Of a DNA stretch of 64,000 bases, positions 49,182 through 61,729 are shown in pieces. The DNA lies in NCBI RefSeq assembly GCF_021026315.1, contig NZ_JAJNCX010000002.1:496001-560000 (forward strand), given 5' to 3'. The notes below the pieces were generated by a model that saw only the letters and a program-made list of their open reading frames with translations, ran no database searches and was not told where the DNA came from. Numbering within the stretch: the stretch's first letter is position 1; each line of letters opens with the position of its first letter. This DNA is from Rhizobium sp. C4 (GTDB lineage: Bacteria > Pseudomonadota > Alphaproteobacteria > Rhizobiales > Rhizobiaceae). Both the position numbers and the translations under genes were made by a program.

Positions 49182-49238
49182 TACTCAGTTTGAGTATATG
49201 TTGAACGCAGGGATATACTCGTTTTGAGTATATGTCAA
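49182..49238 (-). promoter_or_regulatory. nadA promoter with two NadQ-type operators
   Basis: Two palindromes of one design: TACTC-N5-GAGTA (49182-49196) and ATATACTC-N5-GAGTATAT (49213-49233). On the - strand TTGACA (49238-49233) is followed after about 15 bases by TATATC, so the -35 overlaps the nadQ stop codon and the -10 lies in the larger operator. Binding would block the nadABC promoter when NAD or ATP signals sufficiency, as known for NadQ. Confidence 0.78.
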
Positions 49239-50305
49239 TTGCGCGACAGTGGCAGTCTTGTGCTGGAAAGGGCGTGCTCTTCGAGGATGGCGCGGCGATA
49301 GCGGTAGAGCTTGGCCGGACGGCCACCGGTTTCGCTGGAGACCTCGCCGGTTTCCTCGATCAGTTCCTGCTGGTCGATAAGCCGGCGGAAGTTCGGCTTG
49401 TGGAGTGCGAGCCCCGCCAGGGCCTCGACCGTGTGCTGCAAGTGGGAGAGGGTGAAGTTGGCAGGCATCAGCTCGAAGACCACCGGGCGGTATTTGATCT
49501 TGGCGCGCAGCCGCGTGATCGCTGTTGCCAGGATCCGGCGATGGTCGGCAAACATCGATCGGCCGGCGTCAGCTCCGGGCTCCGCGCCGGCTTCGGCAAC
49601 CAGCCCCGCCTCGAACATCAGTTCGTAGCGCTGCAGGGCGAGTTCTTCGTTCCAGGGCGCGCCGTTCAGCCCGAGGCAGAGGTCGATGCGCTTCTGGCGG
49701 TTGTCGCGGCGGGTCGGATCGGCGGCGGCCCAGGCATTGAGCGCTTCGGATATCCCCGCCAGCGCATCCGGTCGCCCCTCGCGATGATCCTCCCAGGGAA
49801 AGTACTCATACCAGCCGTGCCAGCCGGGCGCGCCGGCGCCGGGGGCGGCCTGTTCGCGGACGAGGCCGAGATAGCTGATCGAAATGGTACGCTGCGCCTT
49901 GTCCTTGGGCGAGCGGTCGCGGTCGGCAAAGGTATAGAGCTGTTCCAGATAGCCGAGCGGATGACCGGTCTGCTCGTTCACCCATTCGCGAAGGCCCGCC
50001 TGCAGGCTGCGATGCTCGACCTCAAAGGGGCCGGATGGCAGCGCCTCGCCCTTGCTCACCGTCATCACGCGCGGTTCGTCATTGGTGACGGCGGTCAGCA
50101 CGGCGATCAGTTCGGCTTGGGCGAGCGCATCCTTCAAGGGCAACCAATCCTTCGGCAAATTTCGTGTGTTGAGCAATCTGCCAGTGAGTAGCAGAGAATC
50201 CCGGCGGAGAAACGGAAATTCTTGCGCCGCCGGCGACGCAGGGCCGATGCCGAGGGTGGTGTTCCAGCCCTTCGCTTCGCGGCTGTATATTAGCGGCAAG
50301 CCCAT
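49235..50305 (-). CDS. nadQ: NAD biosynthesis transcriptional repressor, Nudix-like/winged-helix
   Basis: NadQ-type regulator of alphaproteobacterial nadABC. The N-terminal part is Nudix-like (IAVLTAVTNDEPRVMTVSKG, then a Nudix-box-like LQAGLREWVNEQTGHPLGYLE stretch lacking the full catalytic set). The C-terminal winged helix carries FTLSHLQHTVEALAG and GRPAKLYRYR. As drawn it has 356 residues from the ATG at 50305. The first 50 or so look poorly conserved and the upstream ribosome site is weak, so the true start may be an internal TTG around 50150. It is transcribed toward nadA, with the nadA operator at its 3' end. Confidence 0.85.
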   Translation of the reverse strand: MGLPLIYSREAKGWNTTLGIGPASPAAQEFPFLRRDSLLLTGRLLNTRNLPKDWLPLKDALAQAELIAVLTAVTNDEPRVMTVSKGEALPSGPFEVEHRSLQAGLREWVNEQTGHPLGYLEQLYTFADRDRSPKDKAQRTISISYLGLVREQAAPGAGAPGWHGWYEYFPWEDHREGRPDALAGISEALNAWAAADPTRRDNRQKRIDLCLGLNGAPWNEELALQRYELMFEAGLVAEAGAEPGADAGRSMFADHRRILATAITRLRAKIKYRPVVFELMPANFTLSHLQHTVEALAGLALHKPNFRRLIDQQELIEETGEVSSETGGRPAKLYRYRRAILEEHALSSTRLPLSRN

Positions 50306-50523
50306 CCAACATATCCATAATGGATAAACCTCATATGGAATCCGCGGGTCCCGTGGGCCAAGAATTTCTCATGGCGGAGGAGGTGCTGCCGAATGTGGGG
50401 AGAAACTGCCGGTCTGACGGCAGACTTGGATTGATCCGAGACAGACACATCCGGCGCCTTTGCATCTTGAACGTCGTGAAGGGTTCGGTGGCCGTCCGGG
50501 ACGGTCGTGGAGGAGAGAAGACA
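50306..50523 (+). promoter_or_regulatory. leader region of amidohydrolase/ABC operon
   Basis: No gene was seen in these 218 bases. They contain the palindrome TATCCA-TAA-TGGATA (50312-50326) and an inverted repeat CTGCCG / CGGCAG (50406-50411 and 50418-50423). A 13-base symmetric element CCGTCC-G-GGACGG (50492-50504) lies just before the ribosome site. GGAGGAGAG precedes the binding-protein start. Confidence 0.45.
50312..50326. promoter_or_regulatory. palindrome, putative operator site A
   Basis: TATCCA-TAA-TGGATA, a perfect palindrome apart from the centre. Its core ATCCA-N3-TGGAT is shared with 61331-61343 in front of the operon that encodes the winged-helix/solute-binding hybrid. It is a candidate binding site of that protein. 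Confidence 0.5.
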
Positions 50524-51639
50524 ATGAATTTCAAGTTTCTGCGCGATGCGCGCATGATGCTGGCACTGGCAGCATCCGTTTCCATGTTTTCGATGAATGC
50601 CGGTGCGGTCGAGCTTGCCAAGGACAAGGTCGGCAAGCCGGCGGACTTGCAGGACATGTCCAAGTTCTGCGGCACCAAGAAGATCAAGGTGGCGCTGGCT
50701 GACGGCTATGGCGCGAATTCCTGGCGCAAGATCACCCGCGCCGAATTCGAGGCCGAGGCCAAGAAGTGCCCGAACATCACCGAAGTGCGCTACACGGATG
50801 CGCAGGGCAATGTGCAGAAGGCGATTTCCGACATCCAGGGCCTCGTCGCGCAGAAGTTCGACGTCATCCTCGTGTTCCCCGATGGCGGTGAAGCGGTTGT
50901 CCGCGCCATGCGCAAGGCCACGGCTGCCGGCGCGATCGTCATCCCCTACATGGTCGGTGCCAACTTCCCCGGTGAACGTGGCAAGGACTTCGAAATGGTC
51001 GCCACCGAAAGCGTCGACGCCAATGGTCGCGTCAAGGCGCAGTGGATTGCCGACCACCTGAAGGGCAAGGGCAATGTCATCGTTCTCGGCGGCACGCCCG
51101 GCAACCCGACATCGGCTGCCGAAGCTGTCGGCTGGAAGGAAGTCTTCGCCAAGTACCCCGACATCAAGGTGCTCGAAGGTCCGGTGACGACCAACTGGGA
51201 TCCGGCCGAAACGCAGCGCGTCATGTCCGGCCTGCTGGCAAAGTATCCGCAGATCGACGCCGTCTATTCGGACTACGGTCTCGGCTCGATGGGCGCGCTG
51301 CGCGCCTTTGTCGCTGCCGGCCGCAAGGTGCCGCTCTGGGCGGCGCAGGACGCCAACGAACTCGGCTGCTTCTGGCAGGAACACAAGGCAGACAACCCGA
51401 ACTTCCAGATGGGCAACATTTCGGGCCGCAACTGGATCGTCCGCCTGGCGCTGCGCAAGGGCGTCGCGGCGGCTGAAGGCATCGACAACACGGAACCGTC
51501 GATCATCGAACTGCCGCTGGTCGAAGACAGCTTCTCGTCCGATCCCAAGCTGCAGCCGGCCTGCGACAAGTCACTGCCGTCCGATGCGCTGCTCTCCTCC
51601 GGCCTGACGGTCGAGGAACTGAAGGCGCTCTTCAAGTGA
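50524..51639 (+). CDS. ABC transporter substrate-binding protein, ribose/autoinducer (periplasmic-binding type 1) family
   Basis: Periplasmic binding protein of 371 residues. The signal peptide spans about 1-27 (RDARMMLALAASVSMF core, AGA cleavage before VELAKDK). The mature part follows the RbsB/sugar-binding-1 pattern: QGLVAQKFDVILVFPDG, GGTPGNPTSAAEA, and a C-terminal GNISGRNWIVR. The start at 50524 is preceded by GGAGGAGAGAAG; upstream in-frame starts were rejected. It is the first gene of the amidohydrolase operon. The ligand is probably the nitrogenous or polar substrate of that enzyme (inference). Confidence 0.9.
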   Translation: MNFKFLRDARMMLALAASVSMFSMNAGAVELAKDKVGKPADLQDMSKFCGTKKIKVALADGYGANSWRKITRAEFEAEAKKCPNITEVRYTDAQGNVQKAISDIQGLVAQKFDVILVFPDGGEAVVRAMRKATAAGAIVIPYMVGANFPGERGKDFEMVATESVDANGRVKAQWIADHLKGKGNVIVLGGTPGNPTSAAEAVGWKEVFAKYPDIKVLEGPVTTNWDPAETQRVMSGLLAKYPQIDAVYSDYGLGSMGALRAFVAAGRKVPLWAAQDANELGCFWQEHKADNPNFQMGNISGRNWIVRLALRKGVAAAEGIDNTEPSIIELPLVEDSFSSDPKLQPACDKSLPSDALLSSGLTVEELKALFK

Positions 51640-51706: not shown

Positions 51707-52707
51707 ATGAACAGTCTGGATGGACGCGCGCAAGCCGGCGGGCTCTCCGCATCGCCGCTTTCGGCCATCACGCGCTGGCTCGCCAGCGGCGATGGCCTTG
51801 CGCTTGGCGCCGTTGTCGTGCTGATCCTGGTCTCGGCCGTGCTCGCGCCGAGTTCGCTGTCCTATCCAGCGCTCTATGCCATGCTGCCCTTCGCCGCGAT
51901 CCTGGGCGTGGCTGCCATTGGCCAGCAGCTGGTCATCCAGCAGAAGGGGCTCGACCTTTCGGCGGGCGGCATCATTTCGCTGGTCTGCGTGCTGGCGACC
52001 TATCAATTGCCCGATGCCGCGCCGCTCGGAACCGTTCTCGGGCGCTGCCTGCTCGCCATTGTGACGGCTGCAGCGGCAGGGGCGATCAACGGTCTCCTGA
52101 TCGTTCGCCTGCGGATCGCCCCGCTGGTCACCACGATCGGCATGAATGCGGTTCTGATGGGCTTCGTTCTCTGGCTGTCGAACGGCATTCCGGGCAATGC
52201 GCCGGGTCTTCTCGACACCTTTGCGCTCGGGAGAACCTTCGGGCTTCCGAACACGGTTCTGGCGCTCATCCTCGTGACAGCCGTCGTCGCCATCGTCCTC
52301 AACCGCACGATCGTCGGGCGCCGTTTCGTCCTCTCGGGCACCAACAGTGCAGCCGCGCGCGCCGCCGGCATCCGCACGGAACGCTACGAGATCGGCTCCT
52401 ATGTGCTTGCCGCCGTGCTTTACGCGCTGGCCGGCATCCTGCTCGCCGGGCTTCTGAAAGTGCCCAACCTCAATGTCGGGCAGACCTATCTGCTGGCAAC
52501 CGTTGCGGCGGTGGTCATCGGCGGCAGTTCGCTGCTGGGCGGGCGGGCAAGCCCCGTCGCCACGGTCATCGGCGCGATCTTCATGACACAGCTCGGCCAG
52601 ATGCTGATCGCCGCCGGCCTCGAGCGCTCCGCTCAATATATCCTGCAGGGCGTCATCGTCATCGTCGGCGCCAGTGTCCACGCAATCCTGCCCCGGTGGA
52701 TGGGAAG

Positions 52708-52711
<4 letters not shown>
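51707..52711 (+). CDS. ABC transporter permease, RbsC type
   Basis: Inner-membrane permease of 334 residues with eight to ten hydrophobic segments. The branched-chain/ribose-class pattern is visible: QKGLDLSAGGIISLVCVLA, INGLLIVRLRIAPLVTTIGM, and the late VVIGGSSLLGGRASP. GGGAGGGGTC precedes the start. The stop overlaps the next start (ATGA), and the next gene encodes a second permease fused to the ATPase, so the importer would use a heterodimeric membrane pair. Confidence 0.92.
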
Positions 52712-55209
<2,498 letters not shown>

Positions 55210-55226: not shown

Positions 55227-56615
55227 ATGTCGACCATATTGATCAAAGGCGCAAACATTCTCAGCATGGACCCGGCAGTCGGCGAACTGCATCGCGGCGA
55301 CATCCTGATCAAGGATGACAAGATCGCCGATATCGGCCCGAGCATCGAGGCAACGGCAGACGAAACGATTGACGCCTCCGCGATGATCGCGACCCCCGGT
55401 TTCGTTGATACGCACCGCCACACCTGGCAGTCGCTGCTGCGCTCGACGGGTGCGGACTGGACGCTGGCGCAATATTTCGCGGGCGTTCGCGGCGTGATGG
55501 GCGATCTCTACACGCCGGACGACATGTATGTCGCCAACCTTTTGGGTTCGCTGGAAGCGCTCGATGCCGGTATCACGACGCTCTACGACTGGTCGCACAA
55601 CAACAATTCGCCGGATCACTCGGACGCTGCCGTTCGCGGCCTGAAGGATGCCGGCATGCGTGCCGTGTTCGGCTATGGCAATTCGAACCGCGAATGGGTT
55701 CCCGTCAGCAGCCTGCCGTCCGATTTTGCAGATGTGAAGCGCGTCCGCGACACGCATTTTGCTTCTGACGATGGTCTGGTGACCATGGCTTTCGCCGCCC
55801 GTGGCCCGCAGTTTGCCACGCTCGATGTCACCGAAGAGGACTTCCGCAAGGCGCGCGAACTTGGGCTGCGCATCACCGTTCATGTGGGCGATGGGCTCTG
55901 GGGCATGAACAAGCCGCTCGTGCAGCTGAATGACCGTGGCCTTCTGGCCGACGACACGACCTATGTCCATTGCACGACGCTGCATGACGAGGACTTCAAG
56001 CTGATGGCCGATACGGGCGGCACGGCCTCGATCTCGCCGGACCTTGAGCTCAACATGGGCCATGGCTTCCCGGCAACGCTGAAGCTCCTGCAGTTCGGTG
56101 TTCGCCCGTCGATCTCCATCGACATCGTGACGACGGTGGCCGGCGACATGTTCAACGCCATGCGCGCGCTGCTTTCGGGCACGCGCTCGGTGGTCAACGA
56201 TATTGCGCTCCGCGAAAAGCGCACGGTCGATCCGCTGCCGCTGATGACGCGTGATGTGCTGGAATTTGCGACCCTGCGCGGTGCGATTGCCTGCGGCCTT
56301 GGCCACAAGACCGGCTCGCTCACCAAGGGCAAGCAGGCCGACCTGTTGCTGATCAACACCAACAGCCTGAACATGTTCCCGATCAACCATGCGCCTGGCG
56401 CGGTCGTCGAAGCCGCCCATGTCGGCAATATCGACTCGGTCTTCGTGGCCGGCAAGGCGCGCAAGCGGCACGGCAAGCTGCTCGACGTCGATGTGCTGTC
56501 GCTGCGCAAGCGGGTTGATGCGGCGCGTGACGCGCTCTTCGAACGCGCTGGCGTGCCGACCGACGGCTCCTGGCTGCCGCGGCCCTTCGAGGCTGCGGAA
56601 GAGTCGGAATTCTGA
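55227..56615 (+). CDS. amidohydrolase-superfamily deaminase/hydrolase (TrzA/AtzA/guanine-deaminase-like)
   Basis: Cytoplasmic metal-dependent hydrolase of 462 residues, likely acting on an N-heterocycle or amidine-type compound. The HxH motif is HRH (63-65) in GFVDTHRHTWQ. Further metal/catalytic candidates are His219 (ITVHVGDG), His248 (TYVHCTT) and Asp299 (SISIDI). The C-terminal ADLLLINTN returns to the small beta-domain. The start at 55227 follows GGTGAGGAG. It is flanked by its probable importer and by a CobW metallochaperone GTPase. The substrate is not known. Confidence 0.88.
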   Translation: MSTILIKGANILSMDPAVGELHRGDILIKDDKIADIGPSIEATADETIDASAMIATPGFVDTHRHTWQSLLRSTGADWTLAQYFAGVRGVMGDLYTPDDMYVANLLGSLEALDAGITTLYDWSHNNNSPDHSDAAVRGLKDAGMRAVFGYGNSNREWVPVSSLPSDFADVKRVRDTHFASDDGLVTMAFAARGPQFATLDVTEEDFRKARELGLRITVHVGDGLWGMNKPLVQLNDRGLLADDTTYVHCTTLHDEDFKLMADTGGTASISPDLELNMGHGFPATLKLLQFGVRPSISIDIVTTVAGDMFNAMRALLSGTRSVVNDIALREKRTVDPLPLMTRDVLEFATLRGAIACGLGHKTGSLTKGKQADLLLINTNSLNMFPINHAPGAVVEAAHVGNIDSVFVAGKARKRHGKLLDVDVLSLRKRVDAARDALFERAGVPTDGSWLPRPFEAAEESEF

Positions 56616-56625
56616 GGGTCTGGCT

Positions 56626-57699
56626 TTGCTGAAACCTCCCGTTCAGCAGGCGGATCTGGGTGCGGCGGCGGTTAACCCCGCCGCCCGCGTCCCCGTGTTC
56701 ATCGTCACGGGCTATCTCGGCAGCGGCAAGACGACGCTGATTGCCGAGCTGCTGGGTGATCCGGCCATGGCGGGGACCGCCGTCATCGTCAACGAGCTGG
56801 CCGAAGCCGGCATTGACCAGACGGTGCTTGCCGACGCGCAAGGGGACGATGTCGTTCTTCTCTCCAACGGTTGCCTTTGCTGCGGCCGCGGCACCGATCT
56901 CGCCAACGCAATCCGGCAATTGCTGCAGCGGGCCCGCGCCGGCGAGACGCAGATCGCGCGCATTCTGATCGAAACGAGCGGGGCCGCCGATCCCGGGCCG
57001 ATTGCCCGTCAGGTCTGCTTCGATCCGCAATTGCGCGCAAGCCTGCGTTATGGCGGCGTGCTCTGTCTTTTCGACACCATGTTCGGCGAGGGGCTTCTTG
57101 CCCGCGACGCAGTGGGCTACCGGCAGATTGCGCTTGCCGACACGGTGCTGCTCACCAAGACCGATCTGGCCGGCGATGCGGCGGCAGATCAGGCGGCAGC
57201 GAAGGTTCTGTCGTTGAACGCAACGGCCGAAGTTTCGGCGGATCGCGCGGTGGCACGGATTTTCCTCTCGGCCCGCGAAAGCCTGGCCGAACGGGCGAGC
57301 AGCATCCGCTGGTTTTCATCCGCGATCGCCACACCGCCCTGGGCGCATGAGGCGACCGTGGGGACCTGGACGATCCGCTTGGACGGCGCGCTCGACTGGC
57401 CGCGCGCCGAAATGCTTATGCGCGCGATCTATGATCGCTATGGCGAGGCGATCCTGAGGACCAAAGGTGTGATCAATACCTTGGATGATCCCCGCCCGCT
57501 CGTCATTCACGGCATCAACCGGCACTTCCACAGACCGATACGGCTCAGGAACTGGGACGGCGAGGCCGAGACCCGCCTCGTGCTGATCGGGTTGGCCGGC
57601 ACTGAAAATGCGGCCCGCGAGATCGAGGAGGCGCTTTCGCGCTGTCGCGTGCCGAATGAACCCCGGCTGGACCGGGAAGACGCACGAATTTTTGCCTGA
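56626..57699 (+). CDS. CobW/COG0523-family GTPase (putative metallochaperone)
   Basis: G3E-family P-loop GTPase of 357 residues from a TTG at 56626; GAGGG lies upstream, and no ATG fits before the P-loop. The P-loop is GYLGSGKTT (29-37), the metal-binding GCLCC is at 82-86, and TKTD supplies guanine specificity. The C-terminal CobW domain contains VIHGINRHFH. COG0523 proteins deliver metals such as Zn or Fe to partner enzymes; the neighbouring amidohydrolase is an obvious candidate client (inference). Start codon uncertain. Confidence 0.85.
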   Translation: MLKPPVQQADLGAAAVNPAARVPVFIVTGYLGSGKTTLIAELLGDPAMAGTAVIVNELAEAGIDQTVLADAQGDDVVLLSNGCLCCGRGTDLANAIRQLLQRARAGETQIARILIETSGAADPGPIARQVCFDPQLRASLRYGGVLCLFDTMFGEGLLARDAVGYRQIALADTVLLTKTDLAGDAAADQAAAKVLSLNATAEVSADRAVARIFLSARESLAERASSIRWFSSAIATPPWAHEATVGTWTIRLDGALDWPRAEMLMRAIYDRYGEAILRTKGVINTLDDPRPLVIHGINRHFHRPIRLRNWDGEAETRLVLIGLAGTENAAREIEEALSRCRVPNEPRLDREDARIFA

Positions 57700-57721: not shown

Positions 57722-58465
57722 ATGGCAGGACAATTATCATCGAAAGTGGCGCTGGTGACGGGTGGCGCGCGCGGCGTCGGGCGCGAAGTGGTGCGCCGGC
57801 TGGCGCGCGAGGGTGCCGATATCGCCTTCGTCTACGGGACATCTGCCGCGCGTGCGGATGAAACGGTGAAAGAACTGGAGGCGCTCGGCGTCCGCGCCAA
57901 GGGCTATCACGCCAATCTGGAAAACCCGGCGGAGCTTCCCGAAGTCGCTGCCGCCGTGCTGGCCGATTTCGGAAAGATCGACATCCTGGTGAACTGCGCC
58001 GGCGTGTTTCCGAACGGGATGGTCGGCGAGATGACCTTTGCCGATTACGAGCGCGGCATGCGGATCAATCTCGATTCGGTCTACTACCTGACGAGCGCCG
58101 TTGCCGCCTCGATGCAGAAGGGTGGCCGCATCATCAACATCTCCAGCACGCTGGCCGACCGCGCCGGCGGTGCGGCAATCTCGGTCTACAATGCCACGAA
58201 GGCGGGCGTCAGCAGCTTCGCGCGCAGCTGGGCGCATGATCTGGCGCCACGCGGCATTCTCGTCAATTCCATCCAGCCGGGCCATATCAACACCGACATG
58301 AACCCGGACACGACGGATTATCACCACGAGATGATCAAGCGCATTCCGCTCGCCCGCTATGCCGAGCCGAGCGAGATCGCCGGCGTCGTGGCGTTTCTGG
58401 CGGGGCCGGATGCATCCTACATCACCGGCACGACGATCGACGTTGATGGCGGTCTGAACGCCTGA
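57722..58465 (+). CDS. short-chain dehydrogenase/reductase, FabG-like
   Basis: A 247-residue classical SDR. The cofactor motif is TGGARGVG (14-21), NCAGVF is the NNAG equivalent, the catalytic serine is in NISST and the catalytic pair is YNATK. The end of the gene contains the common SDR segment YITGTTIDVDGG. The start at 57722 follows GGGGAGGAAACC. It is last in the amidohydrolase operon and may oxidise or reduce the hydrolysis product. Its stop codon lies in the loop of a hairpin. Confidence 0.9.
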   Translation: MAGQLSSKVALVTGGARGVGREVVRRLAREGADIAFVYGTSAARADETVKELEALGVRAKGYHANLENPAELPEVAAAVLADFGKIDILVNCAGVFPNGMVGEMTFADYERGMRINLDSVYYLTSAVAASMQKGGRIINISSTLADRAGGAAISVYNATKAGVSSFARSWAHDLAPRGILVNSIQPGHINTDMNPDTTDYHHEMIKRIPLARYAEPSEIAGVVAFLAGPDASYITGTTIDVDGGLNA

Positions 58466-58583: not shown

Positions 58584-60299
58584 TCAGGCCGCGTTGTCGC
58601 GAATGTAGCGATAGATCTGCGTCTCGGCGTCGACGAGCGCCTTGCGCGCCGGCTTGCCCTCGAAGACGGCCTCGAAGACTTCATTTCCCAGAACCCTTTC
58701 GATCTCGACATATTCCGGTACGGGCGGACGCGACCAGGTGTTGAGTTCGTGTCGGCGCGCCATGCGGTCGACGAAGCTGACGATCGGCGAGGAGGCCATG
58801 GCTTCCGGATCGGCGCAGACCGAGAAGCGGGGGGCTACGGGGAAGCCGTTGCGCACATGCGCCTTCATGGCTTCCGGCGAGGCCATCCAGGCAATCGCGT
58901 TCAGGATCTCCTGCTTGCGCTCGGGCGGCACATTGGCCGGGATTGTCAGCAGGAAACCGCCGACGGGTGCTGTCGGCTGGCGACCCTTGAGATAGGGCGG
59001 CGGAAGATAGGCGACGCGTCGCTTCACCTTCGAGCTCAGTTCATGTTCGAGCCGCGCGGCGCGCATCGTCCACGAAAAGCTCATCGCCGCATGGCCGGCC
59101 ATGAAGCATTGCAGGTTGCGGTCGGAATCGAAGGTCGAGACATCCGGGGGCGAGACGTCCCGCAGCTGTTTCATGAAGTCGATTGCCGCCAGACCCTCGT
59201 CAGAATTGATGCGGAGCCGCAAGTTGCTGGTGTCGAAACTGTCCTTCCAGTTTTCGTGCTTGCGCGGAATGTCGACGATCGAGCCTTGGGCCGAGGCGAC
59301 GAAGAGCATGAAATCATGGGCGATCGTCATGCCGCGCGCCGCACTCCAGGAGACGCCGTAAATCCCCTGCGCCGGGTCATGCAGCTCGTGTGCGGCGTCG
59401 ATCAGATCCTCGAAGGTTCGCGGATAGGCAATCTGCGCGGCCTCGAACAGGTCCTTGCGGGCGGTCAGGATTTCGATCGTGCAATAGATCGGGATGCCGA
59501 ATTGCTGGTTGTTCCAGCGCCCGGTGCTCCAGACGGTCGGGTGGAAGTCCAGCGGATTGATCGCCGCTTCCGGCAGCACGTCGTCGAGGCTGGCGATCAG
59601 GCCGGAGGCTGCGAACCGGCCGAGCCAGGGCACGTTCAGCGCCACGACGTCATAGCTGGTCTTGGGTGAGGTCAGCGCCTCCTGTGCCTTCTGGTAAAGC
59701 GTGGGCAGGGAGACGAGATCGAAACTGCTCTTGCGGCCGATATCGTTGCGGAAGTCGGACCACATGTTGCGCATGCTGGCGAAATAGTTGTCGTCATGCA
59801 GCAGGAAGCGAAGGTTTCGGAGCGCCGAGGAATTGATGTCATGGCCCTGCAGCGGCGAGATGATGTGGGCGGCGAAATAGGAGCCGCCGAAATAGTATTC
59901 CTCGGTCTCGCTGCCCGAGCGCAGGCCGAAGGTCTTGGCCAGATGCGCCTTCACATGCATCGCATAGGTGATGAAGGCATCGAGCATGTCGGCGCTGGGC
60001 GCAAGAAAAGCGGTCTTGTGCTTCGGCCCGCGCGGCACCTTGATGATCTGGCCGTCCTCGATCATCTTGGCAATCATCCGGTTACCGGTGCCATAGGTCG
60101 CGCCCGACAGCTCGATGAGCGATGTCATGTCGAGCGGCCGCTGCTGGATGTGGCTGTCGACCAGTTCGAGCGCGATATTCCAGTAGGGGTCTGGCTTCAC
60201 CCCGGGGATGGTCGCGTCGAAAGGTCCCCTGAGTTGCCGCAGGAACCCGATCACGCGTGAGAGCTCGTGATCGGAGAGTTTGTTTTCCTGTCTTGCCAT
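58584..60299 (-). CDS. winged-helix/solute-binding-protein hybrid, putative ligand-responsive regulator
   Basis: A 571-residue protein with no signal peptide or membrane segment. Residues about 40-100 look like a winged helix (TSLIELSGATYGTGNRMIAKMI as helices, KVPRGPKHKTAFL as wing). From about 160 to 560 the sequence follows family 1 extracellular solute-binding proteins (YDVVALNVPWLGRFAASGLI, FGIPIYCTIEILTARKDLF, MAGHAAMSFSW, GGFLLTIPAN). It therefore seems to be a cytoplasmic regulator that borrowed an ABC-transporter binding protein as effector domain, analogous to LacI but with the other SBP class. It is co-transcribed with the upstream dehydrogenase and convergent with the amidohydrolase/ABC operon. 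Confidence 0.75.
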   Translation of the reverse strand: MARQENKLSDHELSRVIGFLRQLRGPFDATIPGVKPDPYWNIALELVDSHIQQRPLDMTSLIELSGATYGTGNRMIAKMIEDGQIIKVPRGPKHKTAFLAPSADMLDAFITYAMHVKAHLAKTFGLRSGSETEEYYFGGSYFAAHIISPLQGHDINSSALRNLRFLLHDDNYFASMRNMWSDFRNDIGRKSSFDLVSLPTLYQKAQEALTSPKTSYDVVALNVPWLGRFAASGLIASLDDVLPEAAINPLDFHPTVWSTGRWNNQQFGIPIYCTIEILTARKDLFEAAQIAYPRTFEDLIDAAHELHDPAQGIYGVSWSAARGMTIAHDFMLFVASAQGSIVDIPRKHENWKDSFDTSNLRLRINSDEGLAAIDFMKQLRDVSPPDVSTFDSDRNLQCFMAGHAAMSFSWTMRAARLEHELSSKVKRRVAYLPPPYLKGRQPTAPVGGFLLTIPANVPPERKQEILNAIAWMASPEAMKAHVRNGFPVAPRFSVCADPEAMASSPIVSFVDRMARRHELNTWSRPPVPEYVEIERVLGNEVFEAVFEGKPARKALVDAETQIYRYIRDNAA

Positions 60300-60326: not shown

Positions 60327-61259
60327 CTAGTCCTTCTGGTCCAGCCCACCACCTTCGCGCATCCAGTCGAAGAGCGCGAAGAAATCCTGTTCGGCATAGC
60401 CGACATTCGAGGCGGCAATATATTGCTGAAGGATCGTATTGGCCACGACCATCGGCACCTGATTGGAACGACCGGCGTCAGTGATCAGCATGAAGTCCTT
60501 GATCATCTGCGAGATCGAGAATGCGGGTGTGAAATCGAGGTTCGACACCATCTCCTTCTTGTATTTGACCAGCGGGGAGGCGACAGCGCTCTCGCTGATG
60601 ACGTCCATCATCTGCCGCGGGGCAAGCCCGCCCTTGGCGCCGAGAACCAGCGCTTCGCCGAGGATGGAGGAGGTGGCGCCCACCAGCGTGTTCAGCACCA
60701 GCTTCATGTAGCGGGCTTCTTCGGCAGCACCCAGATAGAACTTGCGGGTCGAGAGACGATCGAGCAGCGCCTCGGTCTCCTGCCATGCCGTCTCGTCGCC
60801 GGAGGCCAGCACCGTCAGCTCGCCGTTGCGCGCAAGCGCCGTGCTGCCTGAGACAGGGCATCTGAGATAGCGGATGCCATGCAGTTTCAGCTCCGTGGCA
60901 ATCCGTTCGGAAAGGGTCGGCGAGACGGTGCTCATTTCGACGAAGATAGTGCCGGCGCGTGCCTGAGCGAGAAGCCCCTGACCGTTTGTGCCGTCGCCAT
61001 AGATGATCGCCGACAGGGCGGCATCGTTCGGAATGGTCGAGAAAATGATGTCGCATCGGCTTGCGAGATCGGCCAGCGTGCTGGCGACGACAGCGCCGCG
61101 CGCCACCAGGCTCGCCCTGTTCTCGGCGACCGGGTCCGAGATCAGGACTTCATATCCCGCCTCGATCATTCGCGTGGCCATCGGATTGCCCATCTTTCCG
61201 ACGCCGATCCATCCCAATACCTTGGCCGGTACTGACGTGGTATGTCCTTTGCCCGTCAC
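60327..61259 (-). CDS. 3-hydroxyisobutyrate dehydrogenase-family oxidoreductase
   Basis: Beta-hydroxyacid dehydrogenase of 310 residues. Starting at the GTG at 61259 places GGGAGG 8 bases upstream; an in-frame extension to 61304 was rejected. The NAD(P) motif is GWIGVGKMG, the substrate-binding PVSGSTALARNG follows, and the catalytic lysine is in MKLVLNTLVG. It precedes the hybrid regulator in one operon and is divergent from a YciI-like gene across a palindrome. It probably acts on a small hydroxyacid from the adjacent pathway (inference). Confidence 0.87.
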   Translation of the reverse strand: MTGKGHTTSVPAKVLGWIGVGKMGNPMATRMIEAGYEVLISDPVAENRASLVARGAVVASTLADLASRCDIIFSTIPNDAALSAIIYGDGTNGQGLLAQARAGTIFVEMSTVSPTLSERIATELKLHGIRYLRCPVSGSTALARNGELTVLASGDETAWQETEALLDRLSTRKFYLGAAEEARYMKLVLNTLVGATSSILGEALVLGAKGGLAPRQMMDVISESAVASPLVKYKKEMVSNLDFTPAFSISQMIKDFMLITDAGRSNQVPMVVANTILQQYIAASNVGYAEQDFFALFDWMREGGGLDQKD

Positions 61260-61330
61260 CGCGCAAGCCTCCCATGTTTCTCCATTGCCCGACAATAAAC
61301 GCAAGCACGCGTCGCGATTTCAGCGAATTC

Positions 61331-61343
61331 ATCCAGTCTGGAT
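61331..61343. promoter_or_regulatory. palindrome, putative operator site B
   Basis: ATCCAG-T-CTGGAT, a perfect 13-base palindrome in the 182-base gap between the divergent dehydrogenase/regulator operon and the YciI-like gene. A -10-like TACAAT (61343-61348) overlaps its right edge. The core ATCCA-N3-TGGAT also occurs at 50313-50325. Confidence 0.55.
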
Positions 61344-61441
61344 ACAATGGCCAGGGCGACGTGATCCCGCTTTGGTAATTTGGGAGAAAGCGGCGGCGTC
61401 CTTTGCGGTCCGCCAGCGATTCTGCATGCGAGGAGGACATC

Positions 61442-61729
61442 GTGCACTACGTCATTCATTGTCTCGACAAACCGAATTCGGTCGAAAAGCGACTGGCGCA
61501 TTATGATGCGCACAAGGCCTATATCTCGAATGCGCCGCTCAAGATGGTCATTTCCGGTCCGCTGCTTGCAGACGACGAAGAAACCATGATCGGCAGCTGC
61601 TTCCTGCTCGAGGCGAAGAGCCTGCAGGAGGTTGAGGCATTCAACCGTGAAGATCCGTTCTACAAGGCGGATCTGTGGGCGCAGATTTCCATCCGGCCGT
61701 TCAACAAGCGGGTCGATAACCGCGCCTGA
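61442..61729 (+). CDS. YciI-family protein
   Basis: A 95-residue protein of the YciI/YCII dimeric alpha-beta barrel family. I start it at the GTG at 61442 because GAGGAGG lies about 6 bases upstream (VHYVIHCLDKPNS). The family His-Asp pair is visible in LAHYDAHKAYI, and SGPLLADDEETMIGS and EDPFYKADLW are typical. Functions vary from hydrolase/dehalogenase-like activity to accessory roles in catabolism. It shares its promoter gap with the dehydrogenase/regulator operon and so may belong to that system. Confidence 0.82.
   Translation: MHYVIHCLDKPNSVEKRLAHYDAHKAYISNAPLKMVISGPLLADDEETMIGSCFLLEAKSLQEVEAFNREDPFYKADLWAQISIRPFNKRVDNRA

Follow-up and report, generated by a model that had tools for sequence, protein, structure and literature searches.

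A predicted one-component regulator joining a MarR-like winged helix to a family 1 solute-binding protein beside a CUT2-type importer operon

Results

Genomic context and gene content

The window (the whole stretch of 64,000 nucleotides of Rhizobium sp. C4 DNA that was analyzed) contains a minus-strand ORF at 58584..60299 that encodes 571 amino acids, the length given in the first-pass annotation. On the basis of Pfam matches, an AlphaFold2 model and full-length homologues, its product is described here as a MarR-like winged helix followed by a family 1 solute-binding protein (SBP), and it is referred to below as the regulator. The ORF starts 27 bp past a same-strand gene for a 3-hydroxyisobutyrate/2-hydroxy-3-oxopropionate-type dehydrogenase (60327..61268, from the ORF map and profiles; the start is uncertain, with the frame open from 61304), which is presumably the upstream gene of the regulator's transcription unit. 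A genome-contig scan identified 49 homologous loci, 36 of which have this dehydrogenase immediately upstream and on the regulator's strand. A gene for a YciI-like protein (61403..61729, plus strand), which scores below the NCBIfam cut-offs, diverges from the regulator operon.

An ABC-importer/amidohydrolase operon had been noted opposite the regulator, and the ORF map and profile searches of the window place it on the opposite (plus) strand. Profiles identify a periplasmic binding protein of the ribose/xylose type (Peripla_BP_4; 50524..51639, start approximate) belonging to a CUT2-like importer, an importer permease of the ribose/arabinose type (51707..52711, below equivalog cut-offs), an RbsA/XylG-type importer ATPase (residues about 13-497) continued by a hydrophobic part (52717..55209), an amidohydrolase (55227..56615; NF006056, above cut-off), a CobW-type GTPase (56629..57699, below NCBIfam cut-offs, start approximate) and, together with the ORF map, a short-chain dehydrogenase (57722..58465), the last gene of the operon, which converges with the regulator gene. 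The ATPase and putative second permease form a single continuous plus-strand ORF of ~830 amino acids. The hydrophobic part would be the second permease, and no permease family was among the 25 families listed for this ORF. No CUT1 permease was found among the neighbours examined at 49.2-61.7 kb. Upstream of the importer, the minus-strand gene at 49235-50305 encodes a protein whose C-terminal part is an NrtR winged-helix domain (PF21906, 1.4e-21) and which has no match to a Nudix domain at E<=1e-5. This gene may be co-regulated with the importer, or may encode a second regulator of it.

A relative of the importer permease was present inside the fetched flanks of 45 of the 49 loci, and the CUT2-type importer is the most constant partner of the regulator. 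Three further stretches (L114-L116) encode relatives at 30-35% identity. Each has a CUT2-like importer operon transcribed divergently from the regulator, and a dehydrogenase gene of this type comes after the importer in two of them, as judged by eye in L114 and by profile in L116. By profile, the binding protein of the neighbouring importer is Peripla_BP_4 in the window and RbsB-like in L116, and in both the SBP domain of the regulator is of another family. Because the importer's binding protein in the window belongs to Peripla_BP_4, it did not serve as the source of the sensor. The neighbouring catabolic enzymes vary between the clades examined, and for this reason no ligand is proposed. In L116 (1136-6730), the regulator gene precedes genes for an SDR and a DddP-like protein (below cut-off) and acetoin/pyruvate-dehydrogenase-like genes, a set that hints at catabolism of another substrate.

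Distribution of homologues

The first-pass annotation had proposed a search for homologues with the same domain order. Matches in all 49 loci reach residue 562 or later, and they begin at or before residue 8 in 48 loci and at residue 20 in L071; the whole architecture is kept down to about 29% identity. Most of the loci are labelled as Rhizobiales or Rhodobacterales relatives, many are from MAGs, and one (L038) is labelled Terriglobia. Of 199 genomes from this family, 17 (the Rhizobium genome among them) contain a homologue at E<=1e-40; a phylum-wide sample of 398 genomes yielded 6 at E<=1e-50, again counting the Rhizobium genome, and one of the 6 (G335) is of another class. Two copies of the regulator lie ~10 kb apart in one genome (L018 and L026, on G186:C5; also L114); those on G186:C5 are 35% and 30% identical to the query. 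Genome G509 has three matches. Two other SBP matches in the Rhizobium genome sit in long open frames of 962 and 719 amino acids; they were considered as further SBP fusions, but judged from the ORF lists their extra length is probably chance.

Predicted structure of the regulator

Pfam matched SBP_bac_1 (2.2e-27, residues 200-479) and SBP_bac_8 (6.5e-22) in the regulator, with nothing above cut-off before residue 200; no NCBIfam profile matched at E<=1, nor did the Pfam profiles SgrR_N and SBP_bac_5. An AlphaFold2 prediction of the entire protein (32-sequence alignment; mean pLDDT 79.5, pTM 0.68), the test called for by the first-pass annotation, displays a winged helix at residues about 10-124 (59928..60272, minus strand), a linker of mostly low model confidence at about 125-159 (59823..59927, minus strand) and a family 1 SBP domain, the presumed sensor, at about 160-571 (58587..59822, minus strand).

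Modelled alone, residues 1-125 gave a pLDDT of 91.1 and a pTM of 0.83 (29 sequences). The core of this model comprises helices 38-51, 58-65 and 69-81 and wing strands 85-89 and 97-101, and longer helices (10-30 and 103-124) flank the winged helix, a topology that corresponds to the MarR-family winged helix with flanking dimerisation helices. Helix 69-81 (60057-60095, minus strand) is the recognition helix according to the model and alignments, and its R74 is invariant across alignments A1-A4. A Foldseek search of residues 1-125 against the PDB returned mostly MarR-family regulators among the 50 matches listed, at weak scores (best E 6.3e-4, TM by query 0.41-0.54, rmsd 4-15 A). Pfam MarR_2 was matched at E<=1 by 12 of 15 aligned N-termini (best 3.2e-6). 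The N-terminus of the window protein itself matched no MarR profile at E<=1, its sole match being DIP2311-like_C at 0.022, below cut-off, and the curated MarR-family profile cut-off is not reached. The winged-helix-like segment anticipated by the first-pass annotation is thus visible in the model and in the N-termini of relatives, and the topology, together with the weak fold scores, supports a head of MarR-like type.

The remainder of the protein is a complete SBP fold. With the whole model as query, the 50 Foldseek matches listed were binding proteins, the best being Arad_9887 (PDB 5iai; E 1.6e-26, TM 0.88 by target length), and a profile that includes distant members aligns with 5iai over positions 160-560. 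Together with the SBP_bac_1 match, these data place the body in family 1, as had been read from the sequence at first pass, and suggest that it has two lobes.

Cellular location

Hydropathy was calculated for the first 175 amino acids of 32 aligned sequences (the window protein and 31 homologues), each read from its match start. The highest mean for any 18-residue stretch was 1.63, in L067; the window protein peaked at 1.06. By this measure, the sole test of export and one that excludes the relatives at 30-35% identity, no signal peptide or lipobox segment was seen in any of the 32, in agreement with the first-pass annotation. In the ten pairs of sequences compared, non-synonymous change in the N-terminus was far below synonymous change; it was higher in the N-terminus than in the SBP part in nine of the ten pairs.

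Public annotation points the other way. Forty-seven plasmid records match at E<=1e-30, 34 of them over at least 80% of the query, and 26 of these 34 are named "extracellular solute-binding protein" (the others comprise one periplasmic sugar-transport component, one hypothetical protein and six without annotation). Taken with the completeness of the SBP fold, these names would make the protein a periplasmic ABC binding protein whose N-terminus has an unusual extension or whose start codon is misassigned. This reading is contradicted by the lack of a hydrophobic export segment, by an N-terminus that is under constraint and modelled as a winged helix, by the operator conservation described below, and by the presence in the adjoining importer of its own binding protein of a different family. 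We reject a mis-annotated exported protein as extremely improbable, and the hydropathy data support a cytoplasmic location for the regulator.

A conserved inverted repeat in regulator and importer promoters

The inverted repeat ATCCA-N3-TGGAT, listed at first pass, occurs in the window as two perfect copies. A pattern search located both. One, ATCCAGTCTGGAT (61331..61343), is in the interval that separates the regulator operon from the yciI-like gene. The other, ATCCATAATGGAT (50313..50325), which has counterparts in front of the importer operons of relatives, is upstream of the importer operon, ~200 nt from the importer start codon and just upstream of the NrtR-domain gene, whose start codon is 8 nt away. 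In the 5.2-Mb genome the exact repeat is found at four loci (50313, 61331, C47:137013 and C49:7358), two of which are the regulatory regions of this cluster; with a preceding T on at least one strand there are three (50313, 61331 and C47:137013), again with two in the cluster. The C47:137013 copy was rejected as an operator; it falls within a called ORF and is probably a chance occurrence.

Promoters were defined as the 250 nt upstream of the dehydrogenase gene where this is adjacent, and otherwise of the regulator gene. The exact core TCCR-N3-YGGA is present in 39 of 58 non-redundant homologous promoters (64 promoters without L010, L014 and L027, then made non-redundant) and absent from 19, compared with an average of 1.04 and never more than 4 in 200 base shuffles of the same 58. 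Enrichment is confined to a spacer of 3, as spacers of 0-2 and 4-8 were found in 0 to 3 of the 58. When inverted repeats with 5-nt arms were enumerated without a preset motif, ATCCA-N3-TGGAT ranked first (9 promoters, versus at most 3 in 20 shuffle runs). Allowing at most one mismatch, ATCCR-N3-YGGAT was found in 40 of 66 promoters (L014 was omitted as too short); among 4017 windows of 250 nt from elsewhere in these loci, 119 had such a site. Per clade, with letters assigned from identity and sequence signatures rather than a tree, these sites occur in 15/17 promoters of A (which include the window, L009, and one near-identical relative counted twice as L010 and L027, the same record), 16/21 of B, 2/4 of C1, 0/10 of C2, 0/3 of D and 7/11 of E; promoters are related within clades, so the site counts are not independent. 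In clade D, each of the three promoters has GTCCA-N3-TGGAC. Eight distant relatives (L018-L022, L076, L077 and L079) carry sites in pairs, spaced 21 bp apart.

The exact core was also present in six of seven homologues fetched after the motif had been defined (0.13 expected), two of the seven having already been observed with the site in longer stretches. One later-fetched homologue that carries it, L081, is 29% identical and comes from a genome of another class. In clade A (L037 and L071 excluded), 9 of 13 regions upstream of importer operons contain the exact core, where 0.4 would be expected; for the four lacking it, the region tested was the one preceding the binding-protein gene, since the presumed first gene was not found there. 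Wherever the first gene of the importer operon was located, the operon carries the core. The counts for promoters, shuffles, later-fetched homologues and importer operons rule out a chance palindrome, and computation thus supports a conserved predicted operator at these locations, its inverted-repeat form being compatible with dimeric DNA binding.

No site with up to one mismatch was found within 250 nt of the gene in a subgroup of ten loci (L013, L059-L065, L067 and L072; 0/10). The recognition helices of this subgroup differ, e.g., FASAMRRIHRLI, and its members may recognize a different operator or depend on a promoter farther away, with operons possibly beginning further upstream. Co-variation of recognition-helix residue 70 with operator position 5 was considered and rejected: G70 accompanies ATCCA in clade A and S70 accompanies ATCCG in clade B, which amounts to one clade-to-clade difference, and L011 and L012 conflict with it, both having A70 yet different sites.

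The repeat could instead belong to another regulator, in which case the protein described here would be a cytoplasmic ligand sensor that uses its winged helix for, e.g., protein-protein contact. The NrtR-domain gene beside the 50313 site, possibly the importer's regulator in the window, and a LacI-like protein seen by eye in L120 fit such an arrangement. The motif, however, tracks the regulator gene across clades, and by eye there is no other regulator among the ORFs listed in L114-L116, few of which were profile-searched. We judge ownership by another regulator to be very improbable, and the regulator described here to be the protein that would bind the repeat.

The element TAnCAAA/TAnCAGA, chosen by eye after the sequences had been viewed, precedes the operator core by 35-36 nt in all 12 of the clade A promoters compared (L028-L038 and L057) and in 14 of the 18 from clade B (between L040 and L075); the comparison excluded L052, L053 and L055 of clade B and L009, L010, L027, L039 and L071 of clade A. 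Read on the other strand, TTTGnTA may be the -10 element of the divergent promoter. By eye, a TAT-like -10 can be placed some 40-48 nt past the start of the core. Because the operator would thus be just upstream of both presumed -35 regions, activation fits slightly better than repression, and we lean slightly toward it.

Discussion

Computational evidence supports a two-domain fold, a conserved architecture, the lack of an export segment and a conserved operator. The regulator is most likely a cytoplasmic gene switch in which a DNA-binding head is joined to a complete sugar-binding-protein body, and very probably a one-component regulator that binds the predicted operator and controls the ribose-type importer operon and the dehydrogenase operon. 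The proposal of a cytoplasmic regulator built from a winged helix and a family 1 SBP therefore gains support from the fold, the hydropathy data and the operator. We hold with high confidence the combined explanation, i.e., a cytoplasmic regulator with MarR-like head and SBP sensor that acts through TCCR-N3-YGGA on its own operon and on that of the CUT2 importer.

In the mechanism we infer, the MarR-like winged helix, presumably as a dimer, would bind TCCR-N3-YGGA, present here as ATCCA-N3-TGGAT, both ahead of its own operon and ahead of the importer/catabolic operon of CUT2 sugar type. The complete family 1 SBP domain would be the sensor, and its ligand a sugar-like compound entering through the importer, or an early catabolite of that compound. 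Ligand binding would close the two SBP lobes and thereby alter how the heads are seated on DNA, so that the regulator would read the ligand of the neighbouring importer.

A different role for the sensor, as a receptor for a global metabolite or as a dimerisation scaffold, is possible but rather unlikely. Such a role has a parallel in SgrR, which responds to glucose-phosphate stress and for which glutamate binding is mentioned (PMC13060122); the variation of adjoining catabolic genes between the clades examined is also in its favor. Against it are the constancy of the CUT2-type importer as partner and the operator in front of the importer operon. We therefore prefer a sensor that reads the imported compound or its early catabolite.

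The finding suggests that a full-size family 1 SBP, a common receptor type of sugar importers, can be captured as the sensor of a regulator, in a second domain pairing beside the SgrR/DsvR type. Most members are annotated as exported transport proteins, with the result that the regulator family and its regulons have been missed. With an operator now predicted, the family is a ready test bed, as each locus pairs an SBP whose fold is known with a defined 13-bp site and an adjoining importer. It could also be a source of sugar-responsive switches.

The general plan of the regulator has a precedent. E. coli SgrR, a homologue of V. cholerae DsvR, combines an HTH with SBP_bac_5, and the Pfam domains of the SgrR family are the SgrR_N winged helix and SBP_bac_5. 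DsvR (Vca0578) is predicted by AlphaFold to have an N-terminal HTH and a C-terminal SBP_bac_5 domain (PMC13060122), and SgrR is tied to SgrS and setA (PMC4021124). An N-terminal HTH followed by a C-terminal SBP domain is common to DsvR/SgrR and the window regulator, and the computed models and hydropathy place the latter within the plan of a cytoplasmic HTH with a complete SBP. The two differ in that DsvR/SgrR have an SgrR-type head and SBP_bac_5, whereas the window regulator has a MarR-like head, SBP_bac_1 and SBP_bac_8 in place of SgrR_N and SBP_bac_5, and a CUT2 importer operon beside it. Judged from its domain sequences, the window regulator would work like DsvR/SgrR but is not a member of that family. 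The first-pass annotation knew of no described regulator class with this architecture; for the general plan this does not hold, given the DsvR precedent (PMC13060122), from which the window regulator differs in its domain pair.

A MarR-like head or winged helix joined to SBP_bac_1 was not found in the literature searched, which included few subscription papers. Fusions of GntR or AraC heads to family 1 binding proteins may exist in Firmicutes, and we therefore limit the novelty to the literature searched. Within it, we consider it reasonably probable that these proteins constitute an undescribed family of one-component regulators, in which a whole CUT1/MalE-type SBP, relocated to the cytoplasm behind a MarR-like head, senses CUT2 cargo via a conserved TCCR-N3-YGGA operator, with a range that stretches from Alphaproteobacteria into at least one genome of a different class of the phylum.

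The regulator resembles the MarR family in its winged-helix topology with flanking helices and in a palindromic operator within a divergent promoter. It differs in the low TM of its head and in the lack of a MarR profile match in the window N-terminus at E<=1, and MarR proteins are not known to have a separate ligand domain. Like CUT1/MalE-type SBPs such as Arad_9887, it has a complete SBP fold over nearly the whole chain, but where these have an export segment, none was seen and a winged helix takes its place. LacI uses the type 1 periplasmic-binding fold, LysR the type 2 fold, and Btr/YbbB an AraC head with a type 3 binding protein. The window regulator resembles all three in the use of a periplasmic-binding fold as sensor on an HTH head, and differs from them in the families of both head and binding fold.
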